From assembly GCF_030166655.1 (NCBI RefSeq), contig NZ_CP126446.1, positions 2,976,001 to 3,040,000 of the forward strand: a DNA stretch of 64,000 nucleotides, read 5' to 3'. A model generated the notes under the pieces. It worked only from the letters and a program-made list of their open reading frames with translations, did no database searches and was not told the DNA's origin. Source of the stretch: Pontibacillus chungwhensis (GTDB lineage Bacteria > Bacillota > Bacilli > Bacillales > BH030062). Below, piece after piece: positions 5,229 to 14,525 of the stretch (position 1 is the first letter of the stretch; each line of letters starts with the position of its first letter). A program made the translations under genes and the position numbers.

Positions 5229-5660
5229 ATGAATGAACAAATTGCCAACTTATTCGATGAATACAGCGATGTACCCTCTTCCCTGATCGGCCATGAGGTA
5301 CTGAGAAATCAACTTTTACCAGATTTACTGGGGAAAGAGAAAGACACAATTTTATATTTCATGGGAAAAAGTTTAGCCCGAAAATATCCTTGTCACACGA
5401 TTGATGAGGTCGGAACCTTTTTCGGGGCAATGTCCTGGGGAGTGCTTTCTTTAGAGAAAGAAAAAAAGAAAGAGTATAAATTTACTCTTTCAGGTGACTT
5501 AACTCAAAAAAGATTAAAGTACAAAACGCCTTACAACTTTCGCTTAGAAGCCGGCTTCATAGCTGAACAAGTAACATTATTACAAGGAGTATCCGCCGAA
5601 TGTGCCTATGAATGTCTCCATAAAAAGAAGTCCGTTACCTTTACGGTGATGACGACGTAA
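5229..5660 (+). CDS. yslB: YslB family protein (DUF2507), function unknown
   Basis: This 143-residue soluble protein resembles B. subtilis YslB in length, in motifs (SLIGHEVLRNQLLPDLLG at about 16-33, LEAGFIAEQV near residue 100) and in place, divergent from sdhC. The family has a bacterial V4R-like or TRAPP-like fold of uncertain role. An AGAGAGG ribosome site precedes the ATG. It is one of the few plus-strand genes here. Its 3' end overlaps the 3' end of the convergent gene at 5641 by 20 bases, which suggests the neighbour was joined here fairly recently. Confidence 0.85.
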   Translation: MNEQIANLFDEYSDVPSSLIGHEVLRNQLLPDLLGKEKDTILYFMGKSLARKYPCHTIDEVGTFFGAMSWGVLSLEKEKKKEYKFTLSGDLTQKRLKYKTPYNFRLEAGFIAEQVTLLQGVSAECAYECLHKKKSVTFTVMTT

Positions 5661-7107
5661 CCCATTTGTACAGAGTAATATCACTATAAACGGGATCAAA
5701 CAAAGGATCAGACGTAAACTTTTTTACAGCCGTGAAATCAGTGGTATCCATCCCCTGTTGGATAAAGCCTTGAACTACCCGGTCTGTAACGTAGACCGTT
5801 TTTCCTTGTTTCAGTTGATTACTGGCATCTTCTTTAAATAAAGCATACGTTTGAATCTTTTGAAACGATTTAGAAACTCCTACATATTGAAGGACACGCT
5901 CTTCTTCCCACGTATATATTTTTAAAGGCTCAGATTGCTGTTCTACATAGTTCGCCAGTTGATACGTAGCAGGTAACTCCGTTGCCTGCTTATGTACGTA
6001 ATATCCACCTATCCCTGTATTCATCAATAGAAGAAGCGAAACCACCCCTATTTTGCGTTTCCCTCCCCCTTTTAAGAGGTGTACCAACAATAAAATCACG
6101 AGGATCACTACCGTCGGTAAGATATGTCTTGGCTTGTCTACATTTTGCGCGAAGAAAGCCCAGAACGTATAAGCTGTTCCCAAACTCCACCACAACTTTT
6201 CATAGAGCACAGAGGATGGCCCACGGAATAAGGAAAGGACTAGCACCCCATATAATATCAGGATTAAAACCGAGTGAACCGAAAGACCAGTCCATAAGAT
6301 ATTCGTCCAAATAAACGTCCATACTCGAGTTATAAAGGGGGCTTGTTCTGTAGCAATAGAACCACCCCAACCTGTAAAATGCCCTTCAACAAACTTTGTA
6401 GCTATAAACTGAAAACTGTCTATCCCACCCACCGAAAGGATTAAAGGATAAACCCATAAGAATTGAAACAAGAACGCTATCCCAGCCTGTTCTAGTACAT
6501 GTCCGAGTCCTTTTTCTCTCAGCCTTTTGTACCACAATAAAAGGATTCCTACACAAAAAGGTAAATAAGAGAGACGCACCCCCATCAAGAGACTGAAAAG
6601 AGCAAGGGGAAGAAGATCATATCGATACCGCCCCCTCTCAAGAGCAACCATAAGCCCCCATATGTACCACCACAAAATCGTAAAAGCAGTCCCTTCAGAC
6701 ATAGGAGAGGCAATGATAATCGTTAAAAATGGAATGGATTGAGAGAAAGCGACAGCAATAAGCGCTTTAGAAATAGTCAAATACCTTCTATAAATGAACC
6801 ACATGGGAAGTAATGAGGATAAGGAAAACAGACTGTTCCAAAGAGCTAAGGAACGCGCAGGGTCTTCTACCCAGAGATTCACAAGCATTCCACCCAATAT
6901 AAAATAAGGGTATCCAGGAAAATGGGGTTGCATATCTAAGAGATTATAGCTTTGCACCCCTAAAGCAAAATCAACCGCGTCCCAGCTTCTAGCGAATGCA
7001 CTGCTATATAGAATACGAAACGATAATATGGCTATTAAGGATAAAAGGGCAAAACCGATATAAAATTTTTCACTAAGGCATAATTGTTTATTTTGCACAT
7101 GGTTCAC
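5641..7107 (-). CDS. Polytopic membrane protein, probable GT-C type glycosyltransferase
   Basis: A 488-residue protein with about ten membrane segments. Early in the sequence is the pattern RSWDAVDFALGVQ followed by PHFPGYPYFILGG. An acidic residue in the first outside loop is typical of GT-C glycosyltransferases, which use polyprenyl-phosphate sugars on the outer face of the membrane (PMT/ArnT-like). A hydrophilic C-terminal region of about 100 residues follows the last helix. I cannot name the donor or acceptor. The GT2 gene at 9063 could make its lipid-linked donor, but that is inference. It has its own GGAAGTG ribosome site and follows the iron-permease terminator, so it is probably transcribed separately. 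Its end overlaps yslB tail to tail. Confidence 0.6.
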   Translation of the reverse strand: MNHVQNKQLCLSEKFYIGFALLSLIAILSFRILYSSAFARSWDAVDFALGVQSYNLLDMQPHFPGYPYFILGGMLVNLWVEDPARSLALWNSLFSLSSLLPMWFIYRRYLTISKALIAVAFSQSIPFLTIIIASPMSEGTAFTILWWYIWGLMVALERGRYRYDLLPLALFSLLMGVRLSYLPFCVGILLLWYKRLREKGLGHVLEQAGIAFLFQFLWVYPLILSVGGIDSFQFIATKFVEGHFTGWGGSIATEQAPFITRVWTFIWTNILWTGLSVHSVLILILYGVLVLSLFRGPSSVLYEKLWWSLGTAYTFWAFFAQNVDKPRHILPTVVILVILLLVHLLKGGGKRKIGVVSLLLLMNTGIGGYYVHKQATELPATYQLANYVEQQSEPLKIYTWEEERVLQYVGVSKSFQKIQTYALFKEDASNQLKQGKTVYVTDRVVQGFIQQGMDTTDFTAVKKFTSDPLFDPVYSDITLYKWVTSSSP

Positions 7108-7124
7108 TTCCTACGTTAGATACG

Positions 7125-7150
7125 AAAAAACCCGCTCGTATGGCGGGTTT
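7125..7150 (-). terminator. Terminator after the FTR1 permease gene
   Basis: Stem AAACCCGC (7128-7135) with GCGGGTTT (7143-7150), followed on the minus strand by six T residues. It lies between the permease stop and the start of the GT-C gene. Confidence 0.85.
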
Positions 7151-7172: not shown

Positions 7173-8108
7173 TCAAGCTACTGTTTGATCCACTGTTTTC
7201 GTTTTTTTCTTTCTAAATAGCGTGATTTCCTTTGCATGCCAGATATTGGCGCCAATGATAAAGACAAAGTATAACCAATAGGCTGCAATTTGTTCGACAG
7301 TTGGATTATGGCTATAACCAAACATAGCAGCCATAAATAAACCGATCTGACCACTGATCATCACGTCACCGCCGGTGTCTCTCTCAAAATGAACCTCATC
7401 TTGATAGTGTTCAGGCATGAATTCTACGATATTATAAACAGCTTTGGGCGTTCCTTGAACCGTTTCGTACACAGATCCCATCTTCCCAAGGTCTTGTAAC
7501 ATGCCAATTCCTTGAACCAATAGTCCAGCGGCAATAAACATGATTAGGACTCCTGTAACTCGGAAAAAGGTTTTTAAAGAGAACTTCATTGTGCCTGTGA
7601 AGAATAGATAACCTAATATTAACGCAAGCATTAAGCCGCTAAGAGCTCCGTAGCTAGTGAATACATCTTGAATTTCTCCCCCGCTTATGGCCGCAAAGAA
7701 GAAGACTGTTTCTACACCTTCACGAAGAACAATTAAATACGTATGCAATACAAGGGCCGTTACACTACCAGCTGTGACAGCAGCGTTAATCTTTTTCTGC
7801 ATATCTCCGTTTACATTCTTTGATTCTTTCTTCATCCACATAACCATGTGGCTAAGTAAGATGACAGAAGCAAACATAATCCCTATTTTTAAATAAACTT
7901 CAGACCCAAAGCTAGCAAAGCCAGTAAAGATAACTTGGAATAATAAAGCTACTCCGAAGCTGCTTAGTAAAGCAAAGAATACACCAGCAAATACCCAAGG
8001 ATGATATTTCTTAGCATCCAAACGTGTTAAATAACTTAAAATGAGCCCGACGATCAATATGGCTTCTAACGCTTCTCTCAGTGTAATCAGAAAGGCTTGA
8101 AAATCCAT
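7173..8108 (-). CDS. efeU: FTR1/EfeU family high-affinity iron permease
   Basis: A 311-residue membrane protein of about seven helices with two copies of the iron-translocating R-E-x-x-E motif: REALE (11-15) and REGVE (129-133). The family imports iron after oxidation of Fe(II). No EfeB peroxidase or EfeO cupredoxin-type protein is encoded nearby. Instead, a small exported protein with a C-terminal anchor precedes it by 20 bases. A perfect Fur box covers the promoter of the pair, so iron starvation should switch it on. A terminator follows directly. Confidence 0.92.
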   Translation of the reverse strand: MDFQAFLITLREALEAILIVGLILSYLTRLDAKKYHPWVFAGVFFALLSSFGVALLFQVIFTGFASFGSEVYLKIGIMFASVILLSHMVMWMKKESKNVNGDMQKKINAAVTAGSVTALVLHTYLIVLREGVETVFFFAAISGGEIQDVFTSYGALSGLMLALILGYLFFTGTMKFSLKTFFRVTGVLIMFIAAGLLVQGIGMLQDLGKMGSVYETVQGTPKAVYNIVEFMPEHYQDEVHFERDTGGDVMISGQIGLFMAAMFGYSHNPTVEQIAAYWLYFVFIIGANIWHAKEITLFRKKKTKTVDQTVA

Positions 8109-8128: not shown

Positions 8129-8878
8129 CTACTCCTTCTTGCGGTTTTTCGTGCGATTAAAGACAATTAATAGGATAAATAATCCAACAAGTCCTATGGA
8201 TAACCACTTCCAAATTGGATTGGATTCCCCGTCTTCACCACCGAAGATCCCTAAGTTTTCTTCTGTTAGGTTCGCATCATCATCTTCTTGGGCCGGAACT
8301 GGAAATGCTTCCGTTAAAGACGTATTGATTTCGTTAATTTCACGATCAAATGTTTCCTGATCACTTTGTTGATCTCCGATACCAAACAATCCGGGATTCC
8401 CTAATGATTGCAAGGCCTCGTCGAAAGATTCATAAATGGATTGAACCGCTTCTTCCCCTTCATCTTCCTTATAGGTAGGCTTTAACACATCAAACGTCCC
8501 TCGCGCTTTAGCGAGCAGCAATTTGGCCTGACCATAATCCTCAAATTGTTCTTGTGCAAAATGAAGACGGCGCTCCACGTTTAAACGTAATGCTGTTCGA
8601 TAACTTTTTAACAACAATTCTTTATCTTTATTGTCGAGCGCTTCTTCTATGTAAGGAACGGTTTGTTTAAAATATAAATCAAATTCTTTATTATACGTAT
8701 CTATGACTTGCTCGGCTTGATCCCACTTATCAGCATCCACGTATTGTTTTACTTCTTTATAAGCTTCGGCAAATTTCTCTTCACCGGGGTCCCCATAAGA
8801 GTAAGCAGCTGTATTAGTTGGATCCATAATGATGAAACTCAGTGTAAGCGTTATGATGGAAATGATAATCTTTTTCAT
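8129..8878 (-). CDS. Exported, membrane-anchored partner of FTR1 permease
   Basis: A 249-residue protein with an N-terminal signal peptide (about 1-24), a helical, Glu/Gln-rich outside domain (25-200), an acidic linker, and a single C-terminal membrane helix (about 223-241) followed by a basic tail. The LLLKSYRTALRLNVERRL and LGNPGLFGIG stretches resemble the extracytoplasmic module that many FTR1 permeases carry as an N-terminal extension. Here it appears as a separate gene just before the permease. That suggests iron capture or delivery to the channel, which is inference. The family is not named with certainty. Its promoter is overlapped by a perfect Fur box. Confidence 0.7.
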   Translation of the reverse strand: MKKIIISIITLTLSFIIMDPTNTAAYSYGDPGEEKFAEAYKEVKQYVDADKWDQAEQVIDTYNKEFDLYFKQTVPYIEEALDNKDKELLLKSYRTALRLNVERRLHFAQEQFEDYGQAKLLLAKARGTFDVLKPTYKEDEGEEAVQSIYESFDEALQSLGNPGLFGIGDQQSDQETFDREINEINTSLTEAFPVPAQEDDDANLTEENLGIFGGEDGESNPIWKWLSIGLVGLFILLIVFNRTKNRKKE

Positions 8879-8896: not shown

Positions 8897-8925
8897 ATGA
8901 TAATGATTATCAACGCTATAGTCAA
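8897..8925 (-). promoter_or_regulatory. Promoter with perfect Fur box (iron permease locus)
   Basis: The promoter is TTGACT, 17 bp, TATCAT. The sequence TGATAATGATTATCA at 8898-8912 is a perfect 7-1-7 inverted repeat identical to the Bacillus Fur core. It covers the -10 box, the usual place for Fur repression. The likely transcription start (near 8890) is almost at the AGGAGG ribosome site (8885-8890), so the leader is only about a dozen bases. Confidence 0.9.
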
Positions 8926-9062: not shown

Positions 9063-9794
9063 TTACGTCCACTCTTCATTTGTCCCAGGCTTTTTCACCG
9101 GAGAAGGGTGTCGCTTCATTTCACGATAAATCGCCGGTAATACAGAGCTCATATAAGCTTTGAATTTAATGAAAGATTCACCCTTTTTCCGTACTTGATA
9201 TTCAATCGGAATTTCTTTCATGCGGAATCCTTTTCGGACAATATTAAGCGTGACCACCTGGGCATAGTTGTAATCATGAATAATTTCAGCTTCTTGCATG
9301 ACCTCTTTAGAGAATGCCCTCATTCCAGATTGGCCATCATAAATCCATCTCTTTAATAACAAGGATTGGAGGAACGTGAAAGCATAATTGCCTAAGCGGC
9401 GGTGTAATTTCATTCCTTCGATGTTGCCGAGAAAGCGAGAACCCATCACATAGTCTGCTTGATTATTTAAGATCGGTTGGATGAGATCAGGTATTTGTCG
9501 ACCAGGATACTCTAGGTCTGCATCAATCATAACCCCAATATCTGCTCCTAGCTCTAAAGAACGTTTTAGCCCTTGTCTGACAGCAGCCCCCAAACCTTGA
9601 TTGGTTTCATTCCGGTAAATGGCATCCACGCCTGCTTCTTTAGCCAATTCAATCGTGTTATCTTTTGAACCATCATCAATGAGGATGATCTTCACTTCTA
9701 TGTTCTCTCCCATTTGTCGTGGAATGGTATGAATCATTTCTTTAATGCAGTCTTCTTCGTTGTGAGCAGGTAAAAATACCACGACTTTCTTCAT
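9063..9794 (-). CDS. Family 2 glycosyltransferase, polyprenyl-phosphate sugar synthase type
   Basis: A 243-residue GT-A enzyme without membrane helices. It has PAHNEEDCI at the nucleotide-sugar site, LIDDGSKDNT, the metal-binding DADLEYP, and GSRF and DGQSGMRAF further on. The order and the short soluble form match dolichyl-phosphate-mannose-synthase-like enzymes, which load a sugar onto a polyprenyl phosphate at the inner membrane face. The acceptor is inferred to be undecaprenyl phosphate. The start overlaps the stop of the preceding phosphodiesterase by four bases (ATGA), so translation is coupled. It is the last gene of the four-gene operon. Confidence 0.85.
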   Translation of the reverse strand: MKKVVVFLPAHNEEDCIKEMIHTIPRQMGENIEVKIILIDDGSKDNTIELAKEAGVDAIYRNETNQGLGAAVRQGLKRSLELGADIGVMIDADLEYPGRQIPDLIQPILNNQADYVMGSRFLGNIEGMKLHRRLGNYAFTFLQSLLLKRWIYDGQSGMRAFSKEVMQEAEIIHDYNYAQVVTLNIVRKGFRMKEIPIEYQVRKKGESFIKFKAYMSSVLPAIYREMKRHPSPVKKPGTNEEWT

Positions 9795-11251
9795 GAAGAC
9801 AGATCCTCCTTCTTACTTTGAGTCAATACTTCTCCCCTGGAATGGTCTGGATATGGTGCTCCAAGTAAATGGGCAATAGTCGGTGCCATCGACACAAGAC
9901 TGTGTTTTTTCTCTACTCGTTTTCCCTTTTCAATGGTCGGACCAGTCATAAAGAAAGGAACAAATCGCTCCCCTTCATCTAAGTGGCCGTGTCCACCAAT
10001 TCCATCGGCTTGGCCATGATCAGCACAAACCATTAACGTTGTATTTTCCATATACCCTTGTTCTGTTAACCACTCCACATAATCTTGGACAAGCTTATCG
10101 GTTTCTTCGATTTTTTCAATATAATCATCATACAACACACCACGACTGTGACCGGTTTGGTCTGTACTAATCAGTTGCATGATAAACAATTCAGGGTTTT
10201 CTGTCTCCATAATGTGCTTCCCTTTTTGGACAATATTCTTATCTGCAACGTCATTATGCATAACGGCCGTCACTGTATCTACATCATCCCCGAAAGTATC
10301 TACGAGATGTGCAATTCCTAATAAACGCCCCTTCTTATCGACTTTACGTAAAGAATCAAAAATACTTTCTGTTTGAGCCCCGAGCTTCCACACCATATTG
10401 CTTTGGATTTTATGCTCAAAAGGATAGGTACCTGTAAACATGGAGGTAAAACAAACCACCGTCCGAGCAGGATAAACGGTTTCCATTTGGGTGTATTCCG
10501 TCCCTTGTTGTTTCAATGAATCAAGAAATGGTGTATGAGCCGCCTCGAATCGGTCTTTCCTCATTCCATCTATGACTATGACAATGACGCGATCATTCGG
10601 TGACTCCATGGGTTGTTCATAATGTTCTTGCGTATACGTTTCATAGGGTTTTGGTTTCCAATCAAATAAGTAATGATGCAATATCCAAGTAAAGAGGGCT
10701 GTTCCAGCATAAAATAAGATCAATTGATATAGATCAGTAATGCTCAACCCGCCTGTGTCCAAGTGTTGAAACGTGTACTCCCAAATTCCTAGCAGAAGAA
10801 TAAATTTAGGGATTTGCTCTTGTGCATTTCCGCTTGTAGAATCACTATTCTTTAATACAAGCTTCCAAAATCGTGTGAAATTCCACCATGTTGTTCCGAT
10901 TCGCATATGATAATAAAAGGTTCCCCAAAAGAAAACCGTAAAGAAGAAATAAATCCCTAAGGCTAATAACCATAGTGACAAATAACTGCTCTCAAAAATC
11001 ATTAAAAATCCCACAACCGGTATCCATAAATAAGATCGTAAAAGCAACGGGAAATCAAAATAATAGAATAAGGCTAGTAACGGTAAAACATACATAATGC
11101 TAATGGCTAATGCCCCTGCGGAAGTATTTAGATCAAAGAGATGATACAAAAACATTGTGCCTATAACAAAAATAGGAGTGAACGGTTTACCTTCATTTAA
11201 TAAATTCCATCCTCTAGCTGCGATTTTTTCAAAAGATGATGCTTGTTTCAC
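9791..11251 (-). CDS. Membrane-anchored phosphodiesterase/alkaline phosphatase superfamily protein
   Basis: In this 486-residue protein, residues 1-200 hold about six hydrophobic segments. Residues 220-470 form an alkaline-phosphatase-fold domain of the nucleotide pyrophosphatase/phosphodiesterase (PF01663) type. Visible metal and catalytic residues are D228 (VIVIDGMR), nucleophile T264 (PARTVVCFTS), D364 and H368 (STDQTGH), D411 and H412 (CADHG), and H423 (GGHGH). Likely roles are cleaving or transferring a phospho-group on a lipid or glycan. The side of the membrane cannot be fixed by eye. The start is GTG at 11251 behind GGGAGGG, chosen because the preceding gene stops just before it. It overlaps the GT2 start. 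Confidence 0.75.
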   Translation of the reverse strand: MKQASSFEKIAARGWNLLNEGKPFTPIFVIGTMFLYHLFDLNTSAGALAISIMYVLPLLALFYYFDFPLLLRSYLWIPVVGFLMIFESSYLSLWLLALGIYFFFTVFFWGTFYYHMRIGTTWWNFTRFWKLVLKNSDSTSGNAQEQIPKFILLLGIWEYTFQHLDTGGLSITDLYQLILFYAGTALFTWILHHYLFDWKPKPYETYTQEHYEQPMESPNDRVIVIVIDGMRKDRFEAAHTPFLDSLKQQGTEYTQMETVYPARTVVCFTSMFTGTYPFEHKIQSNMVWKLGAQTESIFDSLRKVDKKGRLLGIAHLVDTFGDDVDTVTAVMHNDVADKNIVQKGKHIMETENPELFIMQLISTDQTGHSRGVLYDDYIEKIEETDKLVQDYVEWLTEQGYMENTTLMVCADHGQADGIGGHGHLDEGERFVPFFMTGPTIEKGKRVEKKHSLVSMAPTIAHLLGAPYPDHSRGEVLTQSKKEDLSS

Positions 11252-11255
11252 TAGT

Positions 11256-12188
11256 TTATTCCCTCCCTTTAAACCATGTTTTTACTACGGAGAACGATAC
11301 AGGTGTCAGATAAAAACTGATCAGACCTGTAACGTAAGCATAAATAAATTTAAATACGTGTGTAACAACTGCAATAGCATACCCTGTCTCAATCGGAAGA
11401 CCTACAAATGTCAGCGCATAGCTCTGTACACTTTCATAGCCTGCTATATGACCAGGAGTAATTTGAAATACACCACTTACAACTGCAACAGACGTTGCCC
11501 AAACGGACTCAAAAAAACCAAGATCCTCTACAGTAATCCGTCCCACACTATAAATAATGAATCCTTCAAGAATCCAACTCATCACTATAAGTCCAAACAA
11601 AAGAACACCTTTTTTGGAAAGTAGTGTTGAGGAAAAGTGACTGAAGGATGTTAGAAAACGTTTATTTAAAATTTTCTTCAAACGAAAGGGGAGCAGCAAA
11701 GCAAGAACAAATAGGATTCCTACCGTTGTAATCCCTATATAGAACAGCGTATTCATATATAGATATGTGCCGATGGCCGCAAGAAGAAATAGACCCCCAA
11801 GATCAAGGACTCTCATGGCCACTACACTACTCACACTCTTCTCCCAACTAAACGACTTCGTCCCTTTTAAGACACCCGCTCTCACTGCATCCCCTGTTTT
11901 AAAAGGTAAAATATGGTTCATGAAAAGAGCGTAATGAATTCCTGACCAATATGGAAGGAGACTCCCCTTTTCATTCACATATTCTCGCCATACAAATGCT
12001 TTAATCCAAAATGAAAATGCATAGGTTAGCACCATTACCATTAACCAAACAGGAGAGGCTAACAGTTCTTCCGCTACTTGTAGAACCGTATCAAATGAAA
12101 AATAATGAATGGTTAGGTACACAAATAGTCCTGCTAATAAAACACCAGCTATTCGAATCATCCATTTAAGAATTCGCTTACCTTTCAT
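11256..12188 (-). CDS. Flippase-like integral membrane protein (PF03706/AglD-MprF TM type)
   Basis: A 310-residue protein with seven or eight membrane segments and the family pattern: SFWIKAFVWREYVN, LFMNHILPFKTGDAVRAGVLKG (about 90-111), and ITPGHIAGYESVQSYAL near residue 240. The family includes the flippase half of MprF and AglD/YbhN-type proteins, and is thought to move or modify lipid-linked substrates. The start overlaps the end of the epimerase gene by 11 bases and has no clear ribosome site, so it probably depends on coupled translation. Its place among a sugar epimerase, a GT2 and a phosphodiesterase points to an envelope glycolipid route. Confidence 0.75.
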   Translation of the reverse strand: MKGKRILKWMIRIAGVLLAGLFVYLTIHYFSFDTVLQVAEELLASPVWLMVMVLTYAFSFWIKAFVWREYVNEKGSLLPYWSGIHYALFMNHILPFKTGDAVRAGVLKGTKSFSWEKSVSSVVAMRVLDLGGLFLLAAIGTYLYMNTLFYIGITTVGILFVLALLLPFRLKKILNKRFLTSFSHFSSTLLSKKGVLLFGLIVMSWILEGFIIYSVGRITVEDLGFFESVWATSVAVVSGVFQITPGHIAGYESVQSYALTFVGLPIETGYAIAVVTHVFKFIYAYVTGLISFYLTPVSFSVVKTWFKGRE

Positions 12189-13116
12189 GACGAATAAACC
12201 ATTGGACTGTTTTTCTCAGCCCTTCTTCAAAGCTATGTTTAGGCTCATACCCTAACAATCTTTTAGCTTTCGTGAGATCAGCCCACGTTTGTTTCACATC
12301 ACCTAATCGAAAAGGGGCATGGTTTACTTTCATATCAGGAAAGATTTCTTTTAGGGTTTGGACAAGTTCTTCGATCGTAATGGGATTTCCAGATCCAATG
12401 TTATAAATCTGATTCCCCTTACTATGTGCTAGTGCTAACCGCATTCCGTCTACAATATCATCGATATAGGTGTAATCCCTGGCTGTCCCACTTCCAAATA
12501 CGTCTATAGATTCTCCTTTAAGGTTCGCCTGAATAAACTTTGGAATAGCCATATCAGGTCGCCCCCAAGGCCCATAAACGGTGAAATAACGAAACACGGT
12601 CAACTGGAAACCATAGACGTGCTGATACATATGCGCATATGCTTCCCCACTTACCTTTGCTGCTGCATATGGGGACATAACCGTTTGGATCGGTAAATCT
12701 TCACTCATCTCTCCGTCCCTGTTTCCATAGACCGAAGAAGAAGAACCAAATAAAACATGAGGAATGCCAGCTTCTCCAGCCATTGTTAAGACATTAATCG
12801 TTGCCTTAATATCCTCATCTACATATTCTAATGGTTGTTCAAATGAGTACGGGACTCCAGGAAGAGCTGCTAAGTGAAATACAGCATCAAAGGATTGATG
12901 AAAAATCGGTGCACAACTTTCTTTATCTAAAAGATCATTTTCGCAAAATGTGAGATTTGCGTAACTAAATATGCGATCTAATTGTTCTTTTTTACGTTTA
13001 TAATCATAATAGGGATGAAATTTGTCGATGATGGTTACTTTGTGTCCATCCTGCAGTAAAGACTCAGCTAAGTGGGAACCAATAAATCCTGCCCCACCCG
13101 TTAGTAGTACGTTCAT
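12178..13116 (-). CDS. NAD-dependent nucleotide-sugar epimerase/dehydratase
   Basis: A 312-residue extended SDR protein: GGAGFIGSHLAES at the N-terminus binds NAD, and the catalytic S...YxxxK is seen as SSSSVYGN and SPYAAAKVSGEAY. PWGRPDMAIPKF and YTYIDDIVDGM are typical of UDP-glucose or UDP-glucuronate 4-epimerases. It probably makes the nucleotide sugar used by the downstream GT2. The exact sugar cannot be read. It is the first gene of the four-gene operon, with an AGGTG ribosome site before the ATG. Confidence 0.85.
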   Translation of the reverse strand: MNVLLTGGAGFIGSHLAESLLQDGHKVTIIDKFHPYYDYKRKKEQLDRIFSYANLTFCENDLLDKESCAPIFHQSFDAVFHLAALPGVPYSFEQPLEYVDEDIKATINVLTMAGEAGIPHVLFGSSSSVYGNRDGEMSEDLPIQTVMSPYAAAKVSGEAYAHMYQHVYGFQLTVFRYFTVYGPWGRPDMAIPKFIQANLKGESIDVFGSGTARDYTYIDDIVDGMRLALAHSKGNQIYNIGSGNPITIEELVQTLKEIFPDMKVNHAPFRLGDVKQTWADLTKAKRLLGYEPKHSFEEGLRKTVQWFIRHER

Positions 13117-13203: not shown

Positions 13204-13241
13204 AAAAAACCTGTAACTTATATCCAAGTTACAGGTTTTTT
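13204..13241. terminator. Bidirectional terminator between lipoprotein gene and epimerase operon
   Basis: A perfect 16-bp stem (13204-13219 with 13226-13241), six-base loop and T runs on both strands. It ends the Fur-regulated lipoprotein transcript and insulates the operon beyond it. Confidence 0.9.
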
Positions 13242-13267: not shown

Positions 13268-14494
13268 TTATTGTACGAGTTTGTCTAAAGTAGAGACAAT
13301 CTCTTGACCAATTTTTTCTGCTTCTTCAGCATTCTCGTTGCTTATAGCCTCTAACCACGATTCTGCTTTTTGAAGTGTTTCTTTCGTTTGCTCTTCTCCG
13401 AGTCTTTCATTCATGGACATTTCAATGGCTTTCGTAAACATATTCGCTTCAAGTGCTTCCGTACGAGCTTTTGTAATATTTCCTTCTTTAGTTTCTTCAA
13501 CTGCTTCACTATGATAACCTTTGATTTTTCCTACAAAAGCTTGAACAAATAAGTCATTGACCTCACTAGCTTTAATTGTGCTTGGTTCTGTTTGATCCAA
13601 GCTGAATAACGTATTGATCTGTTCAGCAGCTTCTTTGTCGCCTGAAGATAGTGATCCTTTTATAGCCTGATAGAATCCCCATGCTTCTGCTTGCTCAGCT
13701 GTTAGTTCATCATCCGACGCACCTTCACTCGCTGCTTTCTCAATCTTTTCCGCATAGGATTGAGCCGCTAAGAAGTAACTGCGGTAAATGGATTTGTCTG
13801 TGATTTGCTTATAAACTCCATAATCATCAACATTTCCTTCTTGAATTGCTTCTTGTTGAGTCGTTAAGCCGGCATTAATATTCTGTTCAAGACTAGAGTC
13901 CCCTTCTAGTTCATAGTAGCTGTCACGCTTAACTGCAGTTGGGATAAATACTTCATTAGCAAGGAATTTTAGTTGATCAAACTGTTGTTGGGCTTTTTCT
14001 TTCGTGCCTTCTTCTAACTCTTTAGCAATGTCGCCATGCATACTCTTTTGTTTCTGATAGAAATAAGACTGCGTCGTTTTATCAATGATTTGTCGGGCTG
14101 CATTTTGTTCTAAAGACCCATCTTTTCCTGCTGCAATAGCAGCTGTGATCGCCTGGTCAAACTCACCATTTACGCTTGTTAAAACAGGCTGAAGATCTGA
14201 AGTATACGTTTCCTTAATCATGTCCCAGTTTACTTCTTGGTCTTCTTTCATCTTATCTAACTCAGCTGTAATATCTTTATAAGCCTGAACCTGATCTTCA
14301 ATTGATGCAGTTTCGGCTTCTTGATTCTGTTCTTGTTCCTGATCTTCTTGCTCTGTATCTTGGGCCTCTTCTTGTTGATCAGAATTCGTACCTTCTGTTT
14401 CATCTTCCCCTTCGCTATCACCAGCACACCCCGCTAATACTAGTGAAAACGATAACCCTGTGAACAATAGTGTTTTCTTAAAGCTAAATGGCAT
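13268..14494 (-). CDS. Fur-regulated lipoprotein of unknown function
   Basis: A 408-residue protein with a lipoprotein signal (LVLAGC lipobox, cysteine at about residue 22), then a 40-residue linker almost wholly of E, D, Q, N, S and T, then a helical domain of about 340 residues rich in Glu, Lys and Gln. I do not recognise a family. Two Fur-like boxes and a good promoter stand directly upstream, so it should be made under iron limitation. Extracytoplasmic iron binding, or partnership with the FTR1 locus about 5 kb away, is a reasonable guess only. The start at 14494 is chosen for its GGGAGG site; the in-frame codon five residues upstream has none. No permease or ATPase is next to it, which is odd for an iron-binding lipoprotein. 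Confidence 0.75.
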   Translation of the reverse strand: MPFSFKKTLLFTGLSFSLVLAGCAGDSEGEDETEGTNSDQQEEAQDTEQEDQEQEQNQEAETASIEDQVQAYKDITAELDKMKEDQEVNWDMIKETYTSDLQPVLTSVNGEFDQAITAAIAAGKDGSLEQNAARQIIDKTTQSYFYQKQKSMHGDIAKELEEGTKEKAQQQFDQLKFLANEVFIPTAVKRDSYYELEGDSSLEQNINAGLTTQQEAIQEGNVDDYGVYKQITDKSIYRSYFLAAQSYAEKIEKAASEGASDDELTAEQAEAWGFYQAIKGSLSSGDKEAAEQINTLFSLDQTEPSTIKASEVNDLFVQAFVGKIKGYHSEAVEETKEGNITKARTEALEANMFTKAIEMSMNERLGEEQTKETLQKAESWLEAISNENAEEAEKIGQEIVSTLDKLVQ

Positions 14495-14510
14495 ATGTAG
14501 TCCTCCCAAA

Positions 14511-14525
14511 TGAAAATGATTTTCA
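14511..14525 (-). promoter_or_regulatory. Fur box 1 (downstream operator of lipoprotein gene)
   Basis: TGAAAATGATTTTCA is a perfect 7-1-7 inverted repeat differing from the Fur core at one symmetrical pair. It lies between the transcription start and the ribosome site. Confidence 0.7.

Follow-up and report, generated by a model that had tools for sequence, protein, structure and literature searches.

A 64,000-nucleotide stretch of the Pontibacillus chungwhensis genome (NZ_CP126446.1, positions 2,976,001 to 3,040,000; hereafter the window) carries, on the minus strand at 9063-13116, an operon for a NAD-dependent epimerase (EPI), a flippase-like membrane protein (FLIP), a membrane phosphodiesterase (PDE) and a polyprenyl-phosphate glycosyltransferase (GT2). 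An initial annotation had proposed that this four-gene operon may build and export a lipid-linked sugar and is a candidate for an undescribed envelope decoration. Our analysis reproduced the open reading frames exactly, with EPI and FLIP overlapping by 11 bases, FLIP and PDE separated by 4 bases, and PDE and GT2 overlapping by 4 bases, and Pfam upheld the family assigned to each product; none of the four reaches a curated NCBIfam equivalog cut-off among the matches listed. The operon is not free-standing, being instead the sugar half of a conserved eight-gene iron-transporter module that in several lineages lies behind Fur-box-like sites. We estimate at roughly two chances in three that the module is an iron uptake system that makes, flips and transfers a hexuronic acid, probably galacturonic acid (GalA), linked to polyprenyl phosphate.

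The module, LIPO-EPI-FLIP-PDE-GT2-FTRsub-FTR1-GTC, includes in addition a lipoprotein (LIPO), an iron permease (FTR1), a companion of the permease (FTRsub) and a GT-C-type membrane glycosyltransferase (GTC). Its composition was counted in a main set of the best 80 of 204 loci found, chiefly from Bacillaceae and Paenibacillus, the closest being those of Pontibacillus (92% identity in PDE). Counts are quoted for these 80 because 20 further loci partly repeat the same genomes, at least four of the main set recurring (L112/L142, L093/L143, L097/L145 and L067/L148; L denotes loci and G genomes). PDE and GT2 were present in all 80 loci, FTRsub, FTR1 and GTC in 77 each, FLIP in 73, LIPO in 72 and EPI in 68; some loci, L060 and L088 among them, end at contig edges, and L088 is so affected in both the EPI and the FLIP counts. 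All eight genes were found in 57 of the 80 loci, and the four families of the operon, whose co-occurrence the initial annotation had proposed to check, in 63. In every one of 100 loci (the 80 and the 20 further ones, at least four genomes repeated) GT2 comes immediately after PDE; the arrangement is not due to chance. The suggestion that the GT-C gene at 5641 goes with the operon was likewise confirmed by its membership of the set in 77 of 80 loci; the iron context had been missed, and LIPO, FTRsub and FTR1 had not been listed. In many loci trxA and uvrC flank the module, several genera have it at other sites, and in the window and the two relatives closest to it the module comes after uvrC. 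The order of its genes is changed in Paenibacillus (L074) and Tepidibacillus (L107), and reordering was also seen in L165.

PDE relatives, with 63-92% identity where full-length, were found in 93 of 397 genomes of one order at a presence threshold of E ≤1e-80, chosen because no genome scored between 6e-91 and 2.5e-13. A profile search of the 397 genomes for FTRsub (threshold E ≤1e-5) was positive in exactly the same 93 related genomes, and no genome had only one of the two. Among eight drawn genomes of the window's genus, five had both and three had neither. In a phylum sample of 398 genomes PDE was found in 12 and FTRsub in 8, all of them among the 12; the four genomes with PDE but not FTRsub belong to one high guanine-plus-cytosine (high-GC) family. 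The starts of PDE and FTRsub lie less than 6 kb apart in 90 of the 93 genomes and 8.4 kb apart in G072, with five other genes between them. In Fictibacillus G193 and G084 (the latter the genome of F. arsenicus locus L113) they lie 378 and 472 kb apart, the module being split into EPI-FLIP-PDE-GT2 and LIPO-FTRsub-FTR1-GTC with both halves kept, and in the genome of F. nanhaiensis locus L102 LIPO-FTRsub-FTR1-GTC likewise lies outside the fetched PDE locus. The Fictibacillus halves are kept together without synteny.

The sugar core was found with three kinds of iron transporter, namely FTR1 and two different ferric ATP-binding cassette (ABC) transporters. FTR1 accompanies it in Bacillaceae and Paenibacillaceae. 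In another class PDE was found in three of 59 genomes searched (G572, G773, G435), whose fetched stretches keep FLIP, PDE, GT2, FTRsub, LIPO and GTC, with EPI in two of the three; no FTR1 was found in these stretches (the rest of the genomes was not searched), and an ABC transporter stands in its place. For the ABC binding protein of locus L131, iron-binding proteins of known structure were matched (6g7n at 1.7e-102 and 2pt1, "Iron transport protein", at 7.4e-102); the L130 binding protein was assessed by eye. L131 has on one strand, with gaps of at most 75 bases, the order binding protein, permease, ATPase, FLIP, PDE, GT2, FTRsub, LIPO. In the high-GC family (G404, G490, G578, G451), in which no FTRsub was found, PDE-GT2 is followed by a small lipoprotein-like protein, a binding protein, a GT-C-looking membrane protein unclaimed by Pfam, an ABC permease, an ATPase and EPI, the run as far as EPI having been read in G404 and G578. 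The binding protein of L134 matches 7w3w, an iron-utilization/ferric iron-binding protein (E 2.8e-78), the permease (tested in L133) belongs to PF00528, and the ATPase has Walker A and LSGGQ motifs.

Fur-box-like sites were scored against the consensus TGATAATNATTATCA, to which simulated sequence (n=5) gave per 64 kb a mean of 0.0 sites with at most one mismatch and 0.2 with at most two. A site with at most one mismatch was found at the FTRsub start in 73 of 77 loci and at the LIPO start in 36 of 72 (52 of 72 with at most two mismatches); a first count over all loci, repeats included, had given 84 of 93 for FTRsub and 62 of 89 for LIPO. Elsewhere in the module such sites, at most one mismatch allowed, were rare (EPI 2/68, FTR1 1/77, FLIP 1/73, GTC 0/77, PDE 0/79, GT2 0/80), and the neighbouring genes for SdhA, SdhC, YslB, UvrC, TrxA, EtfA and EtfB had none. 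Both EPI sites of the 80-locus set belong to L102 and L113, the Fictibacillus loci in which the sugar genes stand alone, and the same site, TGAAAATCATTATCA, lies just after a -10-like element before EPI in L102, L113, L160 and L162, of which L113 and L162 are one genome. Where the transporter is of another kind, sites with at most one mismatch precede the binding protein in L129-L131, and also EPI in L129 and GTC in L130; in L131 one box precedes the whole run from binding protein to LIPO. A site with two or three mismatches precedes PDE in four of the four loci L132-L135, and none with three or fewer mismatches was found in shuffles of two of these loci.

Table 1. Features of the eight-gene module in the window (positions are those of the window; TM, transmembrane)
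Feature	Description	Position	Strand	Details
GTC	GT-C-type membrane glycosyltransferase, presumed outside user of the lipid-linked sugar	5641..7107	-	9 TM-like segments
Hairpin	Intrinsic-terminator-like hairpin and T-run between FTR1 and GTC	7125..7148	-	by eye; not listed by terminator scan
FTR1	Iron permease	7173..8108	-	PF03239, E 1.4e-40, 139.9 bits vs cut-off 25.3
FTRsub	Protein of no named family, anchored in the membrane at its C-terminus and with a signal-peptide-like N-terminus	8129..8878	-	two hydrophobic ends; iron permease companion
Fur-box-like site	Perfect match to TGATAATNATTATCA	8898..8912	-	overlaps -10 of promoter-like site before FTRsub (8925-8897)
GT2	Soluble DPM1-like polyprenyl-phosphate glycosyltransferase	9063..9794	-	243 aa; PF00535
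PDE	5-6 TM N-terminal part and NPP-like alkaline-phosphatase-superfamily domain	9791..11251	-	486 aa; PF01663/PF00884
FLIP	LPG_synthase_TM / flippase-like membrane protein	11256..12188	-	310 aa; PF03706, E 5.8e-27
EPI	NAD-dependent epimerase, predicted UDP-glucuronate 4-epimerase	12178..13116	-	312 aa; PF01370
Promoter-like site	Before EPI	13172-13145	-	by eye
Hairpin	Intrinsic-terminator-like hairpin and T-run between LIPO and EPI	13204..13235	-	by eye; not listed by terminator scan
LIPO	Helical lipoprotein, no named family	13268..14509, probable start 14494	-	in 72/80 loci
Fur-box-like site	2 mismatches	14511..14525	-	just downstream of promoter-like site before LIPO (TTGACA-17-TAGAAT, 14571-14543)

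On the iron side of the module, FTR1 is the only PF03239 match in the Pontibacillus genome and lies below the NCBIfam EfeU equivalog cut-off (181 vs 255 bits). It has both copies (REALE, REGVE) of the iron-binding motif REXXE, and the R, E and E are kept in 91 of 91 sequences. By profile comparison its two companions, LIPO and FTRsub, are weakly similar (hhalign probability 94.6, E 6.6e-8). The lipobox cysteine of LIPO is invariant in 39 aligned sequences, and the AlphaFold2 model (pLDDT 87) is all helix; no Pfam family was found for the window protein and no significant Foldseek match for the model (best E 0.043). VIA matches of LIPO reached a Z of 9.9 and were mostly to helical bundles (vinculin, catenin), within the range that is uninformative for helical proteins, and a short match to the SMBP small metal-binding protein 3u8v (Z 8.3 over 83 residues) was noted and not used. 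Comparison of FTR1, GTC, FTRsub and LIPO with PDB sequences gave nothing useful. A placement of LIPO in the imelysin/M75 group was not adopted, M75 not being among the families listed for the 39 members and no Foldseek match being significant; just one of 28 FTRsub members matched M75 (E 0.0013). FTRsub and LIPO are likely to be new families of iron-uptake accessory proteins. A stretch LGNPGLFG is almost invariant in FTRsub.

The nature of the sugar is suggested by EPI. Among its PDB matches are 6zl6 (E 5e-51), which we take to be BcUGAepi, the UDP-glucuronic acid (UDP-GlcA) 4-epimerase of B. cereus, and MoeE5 (6kv9, 9.5e-51). At the positions equivalent to BcUGAepi Thr126/Ser127/Ser128 all EPI members counted have Ser, Ser, Ser; S125 and S126 are present in 86 of 86, S125-S128 each in 100% of 85, and T179 and R186, equivalent to BcUGAepi Thr178/Arg185, in 85 of 86, the remaining one having a gap. 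EPI thus carries at these places the residues that, in passages of PMC7984243 and PMC12338863, hold the substrate carboxylate, and a passage of PMC7984243 gives decarboxylases a Glu at the place of Ser128. A frame for UDP-glucose dehydrogenase adjoins the module in 18 of 102 loci (10 full-length, 8 partial; five of the 18 were checked by NCBIfam). Its place varies: in L140, from the window's genus, and L165 it comes directly after GTC, and in Tepidibacillus L107 it precedes LIPO; seven loci have it divergent from LIPO, and eight Paenibacillus loci have a partial frame after FTR1. The window genome has three dehydrogenase-family matches over the cut-off, all away from the module. These residues, together with the adjoining dehydrogenase, lead us to predict that EPI converts UDP-GlcA to UDP-GalA and that the product of GT2 would be polyprenyl-phosphate-GalA; the sugar is probably a hexuronic acid, GalA being the most likely one. 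The eight Paenibacillus loci with the partial NDP-sugar dehydrogenase frame of 254-265 aa (L074, L084, L086, L090, L096, L103, L104, L116) have no EPI, and the frame may encode a shorter enzyme or a decayed one.

The nearest solved structure to GT2 is the dolichol-phosphate mannose synthase 5mlz (E 2.8e-22); GT2 has no transmembrane-like segment and is below every NCBIfam equivalog cut-off listed. FLIP scores 39.3 bits against TIGR00374, for which the cut-off is 43.2, and the window GTC scores 16.3 bits against the PMT_2 cut-off of 26.1, PMT_2 being matched by six of 14 aligned members (best E 1.3e-8). The initial annotation had proposed a lipid-linked sugar pathway, and the gene products do fit it: EPI would make the sugar, GT2 load it on the lipid, FLIP flip it and GTC use it outside. 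FLIP is absent from seven and EPI from 12 of the 80 loci, so that the linear route as drawn is not obligatory. The proposed pathway is in part supported.

For PDE the initial annotation had proposed a comparison with known phosphoglycerol and phosphoethanolamine transferases and NPPs. In the AlphaFold2 model (mean pLDDT 78, below 50 in several active-site loops) residues ~216-484 have an alkaline-phosphatase-superfamily fold. PbgA/YejM, NPP1 and LtaP rank high in Foldseek, and VIA alignment gave ENPP7 (Z 26.0, root-mean-square deviation 2.6 over 262 residues) and XacNPP (Z 25.9, 2.7 over 259 residues). The candidate metal ligands and nucleophile, D228, T264, D364, H368, D411, H412, H421 and H423, assigned by analogy with XacNPP, are present in 101 of 101 sequences, which suggests that PDE is probably an active enzyme. 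The third position after the nucleophile is Cys, aligned with the Asn of ENPP1 to which we presume a role in NPPs. As in LtaS-type and PbgA proteins, a membrane part precedes the catalytic domain; in PDE it has five clear transmembrane segments and one weak sixth, and no listed Pfam family covers it. PDE thus shares catalytic fold and candidate two-metal ligands with this superfamily (XacNPP, ENPP7, LtaP, PbgA/YejM), unlike which it has an N-terminal domain of its own and the Cys in place of the ENPP1 Asn. Its identification as a classical NPP or LtaS was not adopted: fold and candidate metal site fit, but the substrate is not readable from the fold, and the membrane part fits a catalytic domain on either side. 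In the loop after its fourth transmembrane segment PDE has the stretch RIGT..NFTRFWKLVLKNSDSTSGNAQEQ (residues 117-149, minus strand of the window at about 10903-10805), which, unlike the surrounding membrane segments, is almost invariant across families and could possibly be a binding site for lipid or for GT2.

Several further features of the loci were recorded. At their 3' ends GTC and a YslB-family gene (DUF2507) convergent with it share 20 bases (5641-5660). In L164 (G072) the FLIP frame is just 97 aa, and the five unrelated genes that separate GT2 from FTRsub look by eye like an arginine-deiminase-like set. PDE copies have in-frame stops in G047 (one) and G105 (many), the FTRsub match being stop-free in both, so decay of the sugar half may come first in these genomes. 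Only 17 bases separate the T-run of the hairpin before GTC from the GTC start, and GTC therefore probably depends on read-through from the FTRsub-FTR1 transcript. The two hairpins of the module, both between transport and sugar genes, may set the levels of the enzymes below those of the transport proteins. By eye, the 28 commonest neighbour clusters, apart from UDP-glucose dehydrogenase, appear to come from the trxA-uvrC-sdh region or to be of various other kinds. A stand-alone pathway for teichoic acid, teichuronic acid or O-antigen was rejected on the ground that no polymerase, ligase or polysaccharide export gene was recognized by eye among these 28 clusters, a weak test made without a Pfam scan. 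A mobile, plasmid-borne unit was also rejected, as no PDE match (E 1e-30) was found in 72,556 plasmid records.

From these data we infer the identity of the sugar, the order of the steps, the acceptor, the reaction of PDE and the aid given by the sugar to iron capture. UDP-glucose dehydrogenase would supply UDP-GlcA, which EPI would turn into UDP-GalA; GT2 would then charge undecaprenyl phosphate with the uronic acid, a flippase (FLIP or a different one) would move the lipid-linked sugar to the outer face, and GTC would pass it to an acceptor outside. The acidic sugar would help LIPO and FTRsub to capture ferric iron and pass it on, to FTR1 or in other lineages to a ferric ABC transporter, and PDE would act on a phosphodiester of the sugar pathway. 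The sugar may end on the lipoproteins, on a lipid or on the wall, and it may bind iron. A more specific form of this proposal, held tentatively and at somewhat less than even odds, is a new class of iron acquisition in Gram-positive bacteria, namely a Fur-controlled lipid-linked galacturonate system with GT2-PDE as its core, in which an acidic glycoconjugate, bound to the membrane or to lipoprotein, would be the first ferric ligand and the system serves as an interchangeable front end for the three kinds of transporter.

A number of points weigh against the iron-uptake reading. The genomes are related, so that 93 of 93 does not represent 93 independent events, and it is therefore the splits and reorderings that carry the argument. 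FTR1-family members can carry other metals, and the binding proteins of L129 and L131 also get weak, sub-cut-off NCBIfam matches named 2-aminoethylphosphonate or thiamine binding. EPI reaches no NCBIfam equivalog among the matches listed, and its best PDB match is neither BcUGAepi nor MoeE5 but 5u4q, named dTDP-glucose 4,6-dehydratase by its depositors. EPI, missing from 12 of the 80 loci, and FLIP, missing from seven, are each either dispensable or replaced there. The modelled fold of PDE says nothing about its substrate, and neither the number of transmembrane segments nor the charge pattern decides on which side of the membrane its catalytic domain lies. With respect to regulation, the sites represent likeness of sequence to TGATAATNATTATCA, Fur binding being predicted; those before PDE in L132-L135 have two or three mismatches. 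The scan gave 24 promoter-like sites, no more than chance would (26.7 in shuffles). A box belonging to EPI itself is lacking in the window and in most loci (2/68 with at most one mismatch), and in the window the hairpin at 13204-13235 separates it from the box-bearing LIPO; therefore, the sugar operon may be partly constitutive in this strain.

Other explanations were weighed against the same evidence. Two of them keep the link to iron and differ in where the sugar goes. It is possible that the system is one of protein glycosylation, in which GTC puts the lipid-linked uronic acid on LIPO and FTRsub for folding, protection or metal binding and no separate glycan or glycolipid is made. The resemblance of GTC to the PMT_2 (6/14) and TMEM260-like (1/14) group of protein O-glycosyltransferases is consistent with this, as is the fact that in split modules GTC stays with LIPO-FTRsub-FTR1 and not with the sugar genes. 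PMT_2 also holds enzymes that glycosylate lipids, however, PDE-GT2 persist in the four high-GC genomes in which no FTRsub was found, and PDE is left without a role; we regard this explanation as doubtful. Alternatively, GT2, GTC and PDE might build a phosphate- and uronate-bearing glycolipid that binds Fe(III) in the membrane as a siderophore substitute and is tapped by LIPO/FTRsub or by an ABC binding protein. Such a chelator agrees with the retention of the sugar core while transporter type and companion proteins change, and the superfamily of PDE has membrane-bound phospho-group enzymes, PbgA/YejM and LtaP being among the fold matches. Alginate, moreover, is a polyuronate. According to an excerpt of PMC9174327, alginate is bound by Algp7, an EfeO-like protein of an EfeUOB-like operon. 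The closest folds to PDE by Z are those of the hydrolases ENPP7 and XacNPP, and a phosphotransferase activity is conjectural; a chelator of this kind appears on balance unlikely.

Two further explanations detach the sugar genes from iron. If the product were a general envelope decoration, iron limitation would merely induce it, and the link to FTR1 would reflect shared regulation. In line with this, the EPI operon of the window has no box and has its own promoter-like site, a class of site no commoner than chance. Such a decoration seems improbable in view of the co-occurrence with FTRsub in 93 of 93 related genomes, the survival of the pairing when the halves are unlinked and the association with three kinds of iron transporter. 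Finally, the genes might stand together for no other reason than inheritance of a shared trxA-uvrC island, a site that is indeed common to many loci; this is already contradicted by the other sites in several genera, the reordering in L074, L107 and L165, the splitting and the exchange of transporters, and can hardly be maintained. Iron uptake by means of a lipid-linked hexuronic acid is the reading that we favour.

The initial annotation knew of no named pathway with this set of genes, and we found none in the open literature either. On the iron side, EfeUOB (EfeU, EfeO, EfeB; YwbLMN of B. subtilis) likewise joins an FTR1-family permease with two REXXE motifs to extracytoplasmic companions; the module differs in that LIPO and FTRsub are not recognized as M75/imelysin proteins and a sugar-lipid pathway is attached, and no EfeB Dyp-type peroxidase was found in a scan that covered nine proteins of the window. 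On the sugar side, the nearest known pathway is that of rhizobia, in which the Rgt transferases are of the GT-C class and there is a UDP-GlcA epimerase step; it is not known to include a PDE or iron genes. In that pathway, as described in PMC7663294 (rgtD, rgtF, rgtE), the GT2 enzyme RgtE loads GalA on polyprenyl phosphate and other enzymes transfer it. The comparison was made by enzyme class, and the classes concerned (epimerase, polyprenyl-phosphate-sugar synthase, transferase) are present in the module; the acceptor in rhizobia is lipid A/lipopolysaccharide.

In conclusion, every part comes from a superfamily that is either known or unnamed, and FTR1-type uptake and polyprenyl-phosphate sugar pathways are known kinds of system. 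Their combination is apparently undescribed: no account of iron import coupled to a pathway for a lipid-linked uronic acid was found in the open literature, sources under other licences not being covered. There is a fair chance that the module represents a new kind of iron acquisition. The analysis gives testable functions to two unnamed families, FTRsub and LIPO, and to PDE, a membrane phosphodiesterase that is strongly conserved and occurs in 93 of the 397 genomes of the order. It also raises the question of whether, in bacteria with thick walls, acidic sugars take a working part in the import of iron, for which the alginate binding of Algp7, in the excerpt of PMC9174327, is a published hint.

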